From: Saprospiraceae bacterium
GTDB taxonomy: Bacteria; Bacteroidota; Bacteroidia; Chitinophagales; Saprospiraceae
NCBI GenBank assembly: GCA_013214355.1
Contig: JABSSL010000024.1
Location: 62,001-126,000, forward strand
DNA length: 64,000 nt
Direction: 5' to 3'
The notes under the pieces were generated by a model. The model ran no database searches, was not told the DNA's origin, and saw nothing but the letters and a program-made list of their open reading frames with translations. Position 1 is the stretch's first letter. The number at the start of each line of letters is the position of its first letter. Below, piece after piece: positions 61,000 to 62,528 of the stretch. Both the position numbers and the translations under genes were made by a program.

Positions 61000-61974
61000 T
61001 TAGAACTGCTCGAAATAGGCCTGCCATTGCTCCGGATCGTCAGTCAATAGCAAACTTAGCATCAGTAGTATTCGTGCTTTCTTGGGGCTGAGATCAGGAG
61101 CAAAAAGGACGGGAAAGTCATATTCCGGATAGCCAATAATTCGCCCCTCAGGCACCTGGGAGGCAATACAAATCGGCAAGCCTTTACCCGCCGCCCGCTT
61201 CAAGCCTTCAGTCATACCGGCGCTAATCCGCCCTCCAGCGAAGGAACCCACCACTAGTCCATCCAAGCCCTTGGAAGCAAAATAATCTATGATTCCAGGA
61301 TCGAAATCCGTGAAGTCCATTACCAATTCTACCTTGGGAAGTTGATCCAGTTTTTCTATCCTAAAGGGAGTGTTAGCGGTATGCGCATACAGAGTCTGCC
61401 GGTAGAATCGGATTTTATCGGGATCCACTACTCCTAAAAAACTACTTGAGGACTGAAAAGTGTCCACCCCGCGATTATGTGTTTTCCAAACTTCACGTGC
61501 CGCACTTATCCGTTCATTTAAGACGACCATCACACCACTGCCCACCGCCTCGGGAGCCAGTCCCACCCGAACAGCGTTGATTAGGTTAGCCGGGCCATCA
61601 GCAGAAATTTCGTTCGCGGAGCGCATGGCCCCTACTACGATCACGGGTTTGGGGCTACGGATCGTGAGATGTAAGAAGTAGGCCGTTTCCTCCAGTGTGT
61701 CCGTCCCATGAGTTATCACAACGGAATTTAAATCTTCATCCGTAGCAAGTAGCTGGTTGACCCGCTGAGAGAGTTGGAGCCACAGAGCAGGCGTCATCTT
61801 AGATGAACCAATCTTGCTGAACTCTTCCACTTGTATATCCGCGAGATTGCCCAGCTCAGGTAAAGCTCCTACTAAAGCTGGTCCATCGATCATCGGCTTG
61901 CCATTAACGCTGGCAATCGTACCCCCAGTAGTAATAATGAGAACTTTCGGTTTAGCAAAGGAGCTTTGAGTCAT
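61000..61974 (-). CDS. L-asparaginase
   Basis: A 324-residue amidohydrolase converting asparagine to aspartate and ammonia. Both threonine motifs are present: LIITTGGTIAS (T19 region) and VITHGTDTLEETAYF with the Thr-Asp pair. The Lys of the second triad may be replaced, since VVGAMRSANEISADG reads R where many type II enzymes have R or K-x2. No signal peptide, so a cytoplasmic enzyme is likely. A matching promoter is directly upstream. Confidence 0.9.
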   Translation of the reverse strand: MTQSSFAKPKVLIITTGGTIASVNGKPMIDGPALVGALPELGNLADIQVEEFSKIGSSKMTPALWLQLSQRVNQLLATDEDLNSVVITHGTDTLEETAYFLHLTIRSPKPVIVVGAMRSANEISADGPANLINAVRVGLAPEAVGSGVMVVLNERISAAREVWKTHNRGVDTFQSSSSFLGVVDPDKIRFYRQTLYAHTANTPFRIEKLDQLPKVELVMDFTDFDPGIIDYFASKGLDGLVVGSFAGGRISAGMTEGLKRAAGKGLPICIASQVPEGRIIGYPEYDFPVLFAPDLSPKKARILLMLSLLLTDDPEQWQAYFEQF

Positions 61975-61990
61975 AGCAGAAGAATTTATC

Positions 61991-62019
61991 CAAATATAAA
62001 GGTACGGGAACTTTTCACA
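61991..62019 (-). promoter_or_regulatory. Promoter for the asparaginase gene
   Basis: On the minus strand TATATTTG (61998-61991) is an exact -7 box. TGTG about 17 nt upstream is a one-mismatch -33. The predicted leader is only about 10 nt. Confidence 0.5.
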
Positions 62020-62043
62020 GAAGGAGGAAGTTGTAAGAGTATC

Positions 62044-62106
62044 ATGACTAAAAAACGCACATATACATTATTGCTCCTGAGTTATCCGAAGATAACCGAG
62101 GTGTAA
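62044..62106 (+). CDS. Leu/Ser leader peptide of the tRNA operon (20 aa)
   Basis: ATG at 62044 to TAA at 62104-62106. Codons 9-13 are TTA-TTG-CTC-CTG-AGT (LLLLS), four different leucine codons in a row and one serine codon. The first eight residues are MTKKRTYT, a polar start typical of leader peptides. The ORF is followed within 30 nt by an intrinsic terminator and then by three tRNA genes with anticodons TAA, CAG and GCT. These read TTA, CTG and AGT of this very run. I infer a stalling sensor, not a functional protein. No -7 box of good quality is seen upstream. Confidence 0.6.
   Translation: MTKKRTYTLLLLSYPKITEV
62081..62096 (+). promoter_or_regulatory. Leader hairpin just after the Leu/Ser codons
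   Basis: GTTATC-CGAA-GATAAC, 6-bp arms with a tetraloop; outer CTC/GAG adds three pairs. It is inside the leader ORF immediately after the LLLLS codons, where an attenuator pause stem would be. Confidence 0.5.
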
Positions 62107-62133
62107 TTGTATTGTCTAGATATGAAGCAATAG

Positions 62134-62169
62134 AAAAGCTCCTTGGTATTTGTCCAAGGAGCTTTTTTT
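62134..62169 (+). terminator. Intrinsic terminator (attenuator) before the tRNA genes
   Basis: AAAAGCTCCTTGG pairs perfectly with CCAAGGAGCTTTT over 13 bp, with a 7-nt loop and seven or more Ts at the end. The only plus-strand transcript it could end is the leader ORF. It lies 7 nt before the first tRNA, so the tRNAs are expressed only on read-through unless they have their own promoter. Confidence 0.8.
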
Positions 62170-62175
62170 ATGCTT

Positions 62176-62248
62176 ACCACTGTAGGCCAACGGCAGAGCC
62201 CCCAGTTTCAGAAACTGGTGTGTATGAGTTCGAATCTCATCAGTGGTA
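62176..62248 (+). tRNA. tRNA-like gene with Leu anticodon CAG, short variable loop
   Basis: Cloverleaf by hand: acceptor ACCACTG/CAGTGGT, TA at 8-9, D stem GGC/GCC with GG in the loop, anticodon stem CCAGT/ACTGG, loop TTCAGAA with anticodon CAG at 62209-62211. Variable loop 5 nt, T arm ATGAG/CTCAT with TTCGAAT, discriminator A. CCA is not encoded. Bacterial tRNA-Leu should have a long variable arm (class II), so this is atypical; charging identity is uncertain. Confidence 0.75.
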
Positions 62249-62259
62249 CTCAAAATTCT

Positions 62260-62336
62260 ACACCTGTAAGCTAAAAGGAAACGCTATCGGACTTAAAATC
62301 CGATGTTTGACGGTTCGAATCCGTCCGGGTGTACCA
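62260..62336 (+). tRNA. tRNA-like gene with Leu anticodon TAA, short variable loop
   Basis: Acceptor ACACCTG/CGGGTGT (one T-G pair), D stem AGC/GCT, anticodon stem TCGGA/TCCGA, loop CTTAAAA with anticodon TAA at 62294-62296. Five-nt variable loop, T stem GACGG/CCGTC with TTCGAAT, discriminator A and encoded CCA. It is again a class I shape with a leucine anticodon. Confidence 0.78.
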
Positions 62337-62339
62337 AAC

Positions 62340-62424
62340 GGAGGGTTGGCGGAATTGGTAACGCACCACATTGCTAACGTGAGGTAGGCTTAGGCCTGTG
62401 CAGGTTCGAGTCCTGTACCCTCCG
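62340..62424 (+). tRNA. tRNA-Ser(GCT)-like gene, class II
   Basis: Acceptor GGAGGGT/ACCCTCC, D arm GCG/CGC with GGAATTGGTAA, anticodon loop TTGCTAA with anticodon GCT at 62373-62375. A long variable region (AGGC-tta-GCCT stem), T arm GCAGG/CCTGT with TTCGAGT, discriminator G. The anticodon stem is poor: A-C and C-A mismatches at its ends leave three pairs. The anticodon and long arm fit serine. Confidence 0.75.
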
Positions 62425-62528
62425 CAACAACTATTATTGCTGTTCTAAAATTAGTTGCGTGTAGTTTGACAACTACCTGTAACTAAATCAAAAAATTCCC
62501 TATTTTTCCTCCCAAACAATACAGCGTG

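Follow-up and report, generated by a model that had tools for sequence, protein, structure and literature searches.

Reserve tRNA genes behind a putative leader-peptide attenuator in a Saprospiraceae genome and its relatives

Leader-peptide attenuation is the textbook control of amino-acid operons (trp, his, leu, thr and ilv), and T-boxes bind uncharged tRNA directly. We know of no earlier case in which the supply of tRNA is controlled by the codons that it serves. T-box attenuators are named in the accessible portion of PMC2965389, where a word search found no leader-peptide control of tRNA genes; nor was any found among the matches listed in the PMC literature on tRNA regulation, arrays and cleavage, a collection that leaves subscription papers and preprints mostly outside. 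The available main text of PMC12803027, which deals with tRNA array units of mycobacteria and phages, has 0 mentions of leader, attenuat-, promoter or terminator. GOLLD RNA sometimes accompanies such arrays in both groups (PMC12286853, available portion), and the RtcB RNA-repair operon is induced by damaged tRNAs (PMC7790460, available portion).

Here we describe a locus in a window of 64,000 nucleotides (positions 62,001 to 126,000 of contig JABSSL010000024.1, assembly GCA_013214355.1, Saprospiraceae bacterium), which is the whole stretch of DNA analysed. The original prediction had read in its last part a tRNA operon under the control of a leader peptide. The features, in window positions, are the following.

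61000-61974, leftward: asparaginase gene (Pfam)
62007-62035, + strand: promoter-like element GGAACT-N17-GTTGTA, ECF-sigma-like in shape (pattern)
62044-62106, + strand: leader peptide ORF of 20 codons, MTKKRTYTLLLLSYPKITEV (sequence; conserved in L002 and L013), reading ATG ACT AAA AAA CGC ACA TAT ACA TTA TTG CTC CTG AGT TAT CCG AAG ATA ACC GAG GTG TAA
62068-62082, + strand: control codons TTA TTG CTC CTG AGT, four Leu and one Ser (sequence)
62081-62096, + strand: predicted leader hairpin, segments 1:2, GTTATC-CGAA-GATAAC (folding, sequence)
62095-62101, + strand: putative antiterminator segment ACCGAGG, pairable with CCTTGGT at 62141-62147 (folding, sequence)
62134-62170, + strand: intrinsic terminator, perfect 13-bp stem (62134-62146 with 62154-62166) and T run
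62176-62249, + strand: reserve tRNA-Leu(CAG), 74 nt, short variable loop (ARAGORN; Rfam 54.7 bits)
62260-62336, + strand: reserve tRNA-Leu(TAA), 77 nt, short variable loop, A73 (ARAGORN; Rfam 59.0 bits)
62340-62425, + strand: reserve tRNA-Ser(GCT), 86 nt (ARAGORN; Rfam 50.7 bits)
From 62526, rightward: fucosidase-like gene (Pfam)

The operon is intergenic between the asparaginase and fucosidase-like genes, in the last 2 kb of the window. The 20-codon ORF with its TTA-TTG-CTC-CTG-AGT run, the 13-bp terminator stem with a T tract (ending at 62170) and the tRNA genes with anticodons CAG, TAA and GCT were all found as first read, and ARAGORN and the Rfam covariance models accept all three tRNAs. 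The richest 8-codon stretch of the leader has Leu or Ser at five of eight positions, its stop codon is at 62104-62106, and the leader region folds with a z of -4.42, none of 200 shuffles being as stable. Neither Leu tRNA has the long variable arm typical of tRNA-Leu. Only a 5-base gap separates the T run from the first tRNA, which leaves no room for the intervening promoter that the original prediction had named as an argument against itself; tRNA transcription thus needs read-through of the terminator, barring a promoter inside it. No biosynthetic gene follows the tRNAs, the next gene being that of the fucosidase-like enzyme (Pfam).

This layout resembles the trp, his, leu, thr and ilv attenuators in its short ORF, control codons, 1:2 hairpin, 2:3 antiterminator and 3:4 terminator, and in a stop codon placed so that the ribosome would hide segment 2. 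Unlike in those systems, the controlled genes are tRNAs for the amino acids of the control codons and not biosynthetic enzymes, each tRNA leader would sense several amino acids together, and there are several such operons per genome. T-boxes likewise sense the state of tRNA and control a terminator, by direct tRNA binding, whereas here the ribosome is the proposed sensor; in Rfam scans covering the window and 11 loci, no T-box family reached the gathering score. We conclude that the block is very probably a ribosome-mediated transcription attenuator of a small reserve-tRNA operon, one of several in the genome. The architecture, the matching by amino acid, the antiterminator potential and the conservation on which this reading draws come from sequence and statistics.

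In the mechanism that we propose, RNA polymerase would initiate near the GGAAC element and a ribosome would translate the leader. With plentiful charged Leu and Ser tRNAs, the ribosome would proceed to the stop codon at 62104-62106 and cover 62095-62101, upon which the terminator at 62134-62170 would form and the tRNAs would not be made. When TTA-TTG-CTC-CTG-AGT is read slowly, the ribosome would halt and cover segment 1 (62081-62086), and the freed 62095-62101 would pair with 62141-62147, so that the terminator would fail and the Leu and Ser tRNAs would be transcribed. We infer that the leader is indeed translated, that stalling leads to read-through and that the reserve tRNAs are used in translation. 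The natural trigger would be the loss of working tRNAs, cleaved by toxins or defence systems, and not amino-acid shortage. The other operons would act likewise for other amino acids, giving a second, largely minimal tRNA set on demand.

The positions of the segments are consistent with this proposal. The segment at 62095-62101 falls within the final leader codons, which a ribosome at the stop codon would cover, and the competing GTTATC at 62081-62086 lies just past the control codons, where a stalled ribosome would cover it. All seven antiterminator pairs are possible in the window and in its relatives L013 and L002 (G-T counted; segments chosen by eye): ACCCAGG can pair with TTTGGGT in L013, where one pair is changed on both sides, from G-T to C-G, and GCTGAGG with CCTTGGT in L002. 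For a broader comparison, 26 leaders (same-genus repeats kept, the L053 call described below excluded) were folded, in each case over the RNA that begins 12 nt beyond the first base of the stalled codon and runs through the terminator 5' arm. In these predictions the mean fraction of the terminator 5' arm paired upstream was 0.70 with the ribosome stalled, 0.12 with the ribosome at the stop codon and 0.40 with the upstream sequence shuffled. The mean z of the fold energies was -2.49, with values below -1 in 23 of the 26, against shuffles that preserve base content and not dinucleotide content. The stop codon lay 17-40 nt ahead of the terminator stem in these leaders, within a rule that permits 12-40. 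The attenuator predicted from the sequence thus comprises a leader ORF with matched codons, an intrinsic terminator and an antiterminator freed by stalling.

The window operon occurs between the same flanking genes in three species of the genus. By tblastn, L057 and L056 have an asparaginase frame on one side of it and a fucosidase-like frame on the other, and a fucosidase-like frame lies 3' of it in L058, whose contig begins within the operon. Conservation of the leader at homologous loci had been proposed as a check, and the leader is kept, yet diverging, at L002/L057 and L013/L056. The control run is TTA TTG CTC CTA AGT in L002/L057, where the only downstream tRNA found is Leu-TAA, and AGT TTA TCA CTT CGA AGT in L013/L056, which have Leu-TAA and Ser-GCT. 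After the L002 terminator, an unrelated near-palindrome occupies the place of tRNA-Leu(CAG).

The source genome (11.2 Mb in 224 contigs) has 54 Rfam tRNA matches and, by ARAGORN, 53 distinct tRNA genes, which divide into an ordinary and an odd class. Ordinary Leu and Ser tRNAs are also encoded, the former long-armed (83-88 nt), whereas the odd Leu tRNAs measure 74-77 nt. The odd tRNAs are confined to few places, and their operons are spread over six contigs. Upstream of odd tRNAs, four more loci repeat the succession of GGAAC element, short ORF, hairpin and tRNAs, so that the original prediction is to be amended: the window operon is one of several that jointly carry a second tRNA set. It has three tRNAs, and the other operons of the genome have 1 to 10 (ARAGORN). 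These other operons are as follows.

C35 operon, leader MKTIKIHIPIPQRPRHQRPRFLWGIQTYTSR: tRNAs Pro, Leu(AAG), His, Arg, Gln, Gln, Gln
C148 operon, leader MYSITATTVINKGGAST: tRNAs Val, Ile, Ala, Lys and Thr (the last an Rfam match with its anticodon read by eye)
C159 operon, leader MHTTKTYQTYWHLLLQPARE: tRNAs Trp and a Tyr-like one recognised by eye only
C171 operon, 48-residue ORF with C-terminal ESNFDGIDFDFGSIEGKENLIS: tRNAs Asp, Leu, Ser, Gly, Asn, Ile, Met, Phe, Phe, Lys

By operon, the leaders are rich in Leu and Ser (window); Pro, Gln, Arg and His; Thr, Ala, Val, Ile and Lys; Tyr and Trp; and Asp, Gly, Asn, Phe, Ile and others. With two tRNAs taken by eye, the true pairing of the five leaders with the five operons ranked 1st of 120. 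The C159 leader fits only through Trp and the Tyr tRNA seen by eye, for which ARAGORN made no call even at a 65% threshold. The C171 leader has a hairpin without a clear T run and was therefore missed by the uniform rule given below, and C144 (tRNA-Phe) has the promoter-like element and no leader. Under that rule, an ORF and terminator preceded 1 of 29 ordinary tRNA unit heads and 5 of 12 odd-locus heads, one of the latter being a false call inside GOLLD RNA. The sole ordinary head matched, before tRNA-Trp, is the end of a protein gene and not a leader; we take this gene to be EF-Tu from its sequence. Inside the leader-headed C171 operon (L053, 484-1020) lies a GOLLD RNA (RF02032) that itself contains a tRNA gene; it scores 119.1 bits (E 1.4e-32), under the gathering score of 150 bits, and segments around it recur in L068, L076, L074 and L206. 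In C35 (L052, about 690-1200 of the reverse complement), two more copies of the tRNA-Pro segment, both broken, stand between tRNA-Pro and tRNA-Leu.

In part like the array units of mycobacteria and phages (PMC12803027, in its available text), these sets are clustered extra tRNAs for many amino acids; they share short-arm Leu tRNAs with the mycobacterial arrays and, through C171, a GOLLD RNA with the arrays in the accessible part of PMC12286853. Unlike the array units, the Saprospiraceae sets are distributed over operons that each serve one group of amino acids and have a leader of their own. The likeness to the RtcB operon (PMC7790460, available portion) is a response tied to tRNA damage, which for the reserve tRNAs we infer; that operon provides repair enzymes under a transcription activator, whereas the reserve operons would provide replacement tRNAs under an RNA attenuator.

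The relation between leaders and operons was measured with a composition-blind rule, namely an ATG ORF of 13-60 residues whose stop codon is followed after 12-40 nt by a terminator, with a tRNA downstream, the gap limits having been chosen after viewing examples. It returned 27 leaders in 26 of 61 loci, from 21 genomes of the class; one call, inside L053, is the false one in GOLLD RNA, and some of the loci without a rule leader contain no tRNA other than an ordinary one or begin right at the end of a contig. The match was taken as the fraction of leader residues that are among the amino acids of the operon's tRNAs. For the 27 leaders it was 0.372 vs 0.257 when permuted (z 6.3), and z was 5.6 for the 22 non-redundant ones, from which five same-genus repeats (L057, L056, L078, L075 and L171) had been removed; a further version also removed the L053 call. 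By this whole-peptide measure, 21 of the 27 matched their own operon no less closely than they matched the other operons on average, and six matched it worse. Among 26 stretches from named records there were 12 rule matches, including L240 and L259, which are unlike leaders, and also leaders in three Nocardia species. All non-redundant rule matches together (n = 27, with L240, L259 and the L053 call, and with only repeats and the doubly fetched contigs L246, L249, L261 and L262 excluded) gave 0.392 vs 0.288 for the whole peptide (z 6.0) and 0.778 vs 0.539 for the best 8-codon window (z 7.1). For that window the values were 0.807 vs 0.549 (z 7.2) in a version (n = 24) without the same-genus repeats, the L053 call, the Nocardia repeats L248 and L260, and L240 and L259, these last two dropped by choice. 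In each permutation test, 0 of 200,000 permutations reached the observed match. Leaders recognised by eye (the main one of L053, L068, L074, L083, L179, L181, L183, L185, L190, L196, L206 and L210) were excluded from the tests, except that the L053 main leader was used in the 5 x 5 pairing matrix.

The match is one of amino acids. The original prediction had leader and tRNAs corresponding codon by codon; the amino-acid part of this claim stood, and strict codon-anticodon matching was dropped on account of the varied synonyms and of the AGT codon of L002, whose only tRNA found is Leu(TAA). Leader synonyms include codons that the operon's own tRNAs need not read, and the leaders (L053 call excluded) vary their Leu, Ser and Arg codons more than codon usage would give, with a count of different codons of 100 vs 89.1 expected (8 of 5000 simulations). 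Such variety is expected if each leader watches every isoacceptor. Combinations in leaders rich in Trp, Tyr, Cys, Pro, Gln, Arg, His, Asp or Gly also follow the downstream tRNAs. A swap within the C35 type is tracked as well: L075 has tRNA-Val where the source genome (L052) and L078 have Leu(AAG), and Val codons are present in the leader of L075 and absent from those of L052 and L078, which are both without tRNA-Val.

Further genomes were reached with a covariance model of the short-arm Leu-TAA tRNA, run on overlapping sets of 398 family, 298 order and 395 class genomes, with at most 30 loci taken per set. Since the loci were sampled through Leu tRNAs, operons without Leu are under-represented. 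Three Nocardia species were added by a pattern scan of named genomes (26 stretches). Representative loci are listed here.

L055, another genus: leader MKANIQYINILSLSSLSSYSCEFCEGMC; tRNAs Leu-TAA, Ser-GCT, Ser-TGA
L172: leader MHNHTSYLCSFSWLLTQAARAMV; tRNAs Leu, Leu, Tyr, Phe, Trp, Ser, Cys, Ser
L193: leader MMLELLNINLQDLHQLHQEVLEQLDQELILDWKQLHFE; tRNAs Asp, Glu, Gln, Leu, His
L184: leader MKLFIHIQRQPEPHSLIYEDHLCR; tRNAs Pro, His, Glu, Arg, Gln, Met
L198, another family: leader MIKCNSYLSLYLSLEKGYCNGM; tRNAs Leu, Leu, Tyr
L211, another order: leader MIIKNNILSLCLSSYSIGILRGSLYDDLR; tRNAs Leu, Leu, Ser, Cys, Tyr, Ser
L244, Nocardia: leader begins MTSTQDQGLRSLAGAWQLRSGTRRPMSQLR; tRNAs Trp, Arg, Leu, Arg, Gln
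L248, Nocardia: leader begins MTSTQDQGLRSLAGAWQLRSGTRRPMSQLR; tRNAs Trp, Arg, Leu, Arg, Arg
L260, Nocardia: leader begins MTSTQDQGLRSLAGAWQLRSGTRRPMSQLR; tRNAs Trp, Leu, Arg and one undecided

Leader composition, whose comparison with tRNA content in other genomes had been suggested at the outset, tracks it across genera and in another family, order and phylum. Neither the rule nor inspection by eye recognised a leader ahead of the L192, L197, L201, L230 and L233 arrays. Model R1 matched 200 of 398 family genomes, which is not a prevalence because R1 also picks ordinary Arg tRNAs; in the class search these made up 25 of the 29 loci read. A pattern search of 395 phylum genomes gave no match and is uninformative, as the pattern fails on the source genome too. 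L180, L191 and L193 have two or more tandem ORF-terminator modules ahead of one tRNA cluster, and L184 and L178 have additional leaders within their tRNA arrays, each matched to the tRNAs immediately downstream.

The reserve tRNAs were counted over 225 genes from leader-bearing and sister arrays, with same-genus loci not thinned and with the by-eye loci and L076 (where the contig ends and the leader is not visible) taken in. Four-codon boxes mostly have a single T34 anticodon (Ala TGC, Gly TCC, Pro TGG, Thr TGT and Val TAC, with one AAC). Arg is read by ACG (7) and TCG (1), Ser by TGA and GCT, and Leu by TAG, TAA, one CAG and two AAG. The long variable arm is absent from 41 of 43 Leu tRNAs, and the source genome has a long-armed His tRNA of 89 nt. 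Anticodons, Leu A73 and paired stem changes are kept, and the cloverleaf passes the covariance model; relatives of the reserve Leu-TAA occur in four other genomes, with paired changes in the stems. Position 37 was compared with a small set of ordinary tRNAs, in places one gene, and against this reference A37 replaces G in Leu-TAG (20/23), Arg-ACG (7/7), Gln-TTG (13/14) and Pro (9/14), T37 replaces A in Asp (13/13) and G37 replaces A in Phe (9/14), with Lys, Ser, Tyr and Met as in ordinary tRNAs or nearly so. Such changes would fit tRNAs that evade anticodon-loop nucleases or modification. A second LeuRS for the short-arm Leu tRNAs was considered and rejected: a PF00133 search gave five frames of 509-1097 residues, of which one, assigned by length, is of LeuRS size, so that the ordinary enzyme would have to charge them. 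By length and score we take the five to be the Ile, Val, Leu, Met and Cys enzymes, one each, with Cys below the cut-off.

Several other explanations have to be weighed against codon-matched attenuation of reserve tRNAs in answer to tRNA loss. The operons might be cargo of phages or plasmids against cleavage of host tRNAs, the chromosomal copies being remnants or tamed, which we consider possible and somewhat unlikely. The GOLLD RNA of C171, a kind reported near phage tRNA islands (PMC12286853, available portion), the large tRNA arrays on mycobacterial plasmids and the position-37 changes, reminiscent of phage tRNAs for which resistance to anticodon nucleases is reported (PMC10264068, available portion), all speak for such cargo. 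However, the window operon is flanked by one and the same gene pair in three congeneric species, the neighbouring genes examined are ordinary metabolic ones, the source-genome operons are on six contigs, no plasmid record matches the window operon and one phage record matches its tRNA-Ser only; moreover, a mobile past bears more on origin than on mechanism. Amino-acid attenuation proper, in which the leader senses Leu or Ser starvation and the extra tRNAs are a starvation response, is unlikely. The sensor alone cannot separate a missing amino acid from a missing tRNA, and the leaders resemble those of amino-acid biosynthesis operons, yet a shortage of amino acid is not cured by more tRNA and a fucosidase-like gene, not a biosynthetic one, follows the window tRNAs. 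In addition, leader combinations (Trp, Tyr, Cys, Pro, Gln and so on) follow the downstream tRNAs, and the excess of synonyms suits the sensing of every isoacceptor.

Under the same attenuator, the reserve tRNAs could act outside translation, for example as nuclease decoys, a role that their unusual bodies would suit (short-arm Leu in 41/43, the 89-nt His, Asp T37 in 13/13) and that we regard as very unlikely. A decoy set would need neither box coverage nor kept anticodons, A73 and stems, whereas these tRNAs span many amino acids, mostly with a single tRNA for each codon box, and have kept their anticodons, Leu A73 and paired stem changes. Short ORFs are common, and the whole arrangement could be a coincidence, with the ORF untranslated, the hairpin part of something else and the tRNAs constitutive or dead; given the permutation and antiterminator tests, the conserved leader, the paired changes in tRNA stems and the lack of promoter room between terminator and tRNA, this is hardly credible. 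Leader-peptide attenuation of the tRNA operon, as originally put forward, thus draws support from conservation, from composition tracking and from the antiterminator pairings.

A wider proposal, to which we give about even chances, is that several lineages maintain a second tRNA set, minimal and near-complete, whose members have been altered to escape whatever destroys the first set, with a codon-matched attenuator for each amino-acid group, and that the ribosome senses the failure of a particular tRNA species and turns on the replacements for it. If true, this would be a feedback through which translation mends its own decoding, and tRNA genes would be a new target class for leader-peptide attenuation. 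The finding makes the role of supernumerary tRNA arrays testable, and would tie them to tRNA-cleaving toxins and defence systems and to GOLLD RNA. The reserve operons may also supply natural short-arm Leu tRNAs and a ready reporter for the failure of a single tRNA species.

Arrays of 27-30 tRNA genes with short-arm Leu tRNAs are present on Mycolicibacterium and Mycobacterium plasmids (L266, L267 and L268). No terminator was found in the 500 nt upstream of these three arrays, where there is a conserved ORF of about 72 codons.

The promoter-like element GGAACT-N17-GTTGTA has an ECF-sigma-like shape and may be of that class. Its strict pattern has nine matches in the 11.2-Mb genome and three for the reversed control; of the nine, five belong to odd tRNA loci, one precedes an ordinary tRNA-Gln and three lie elsewhere, and the deviant C148 element is missed. 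A wider regulon under this element was rejected, as the three matches elsewhere are not above the three of the control. In four relatives, a looser pattern gave 18, 9, 5 and 3 matches vs 12, 13, 5 and 10 for the control, so that the pattern alone has little specificity. Upstream of the leaders, GGAAC occurs within 130 nt in 17 of 26 (same-genus repeats included) vs 1.8 expected from shuffles. In L066 (C208), a GGAAC-type element, which may be there by chance, precedes a protein gene whose product is presumably von Willebrand-A-like.
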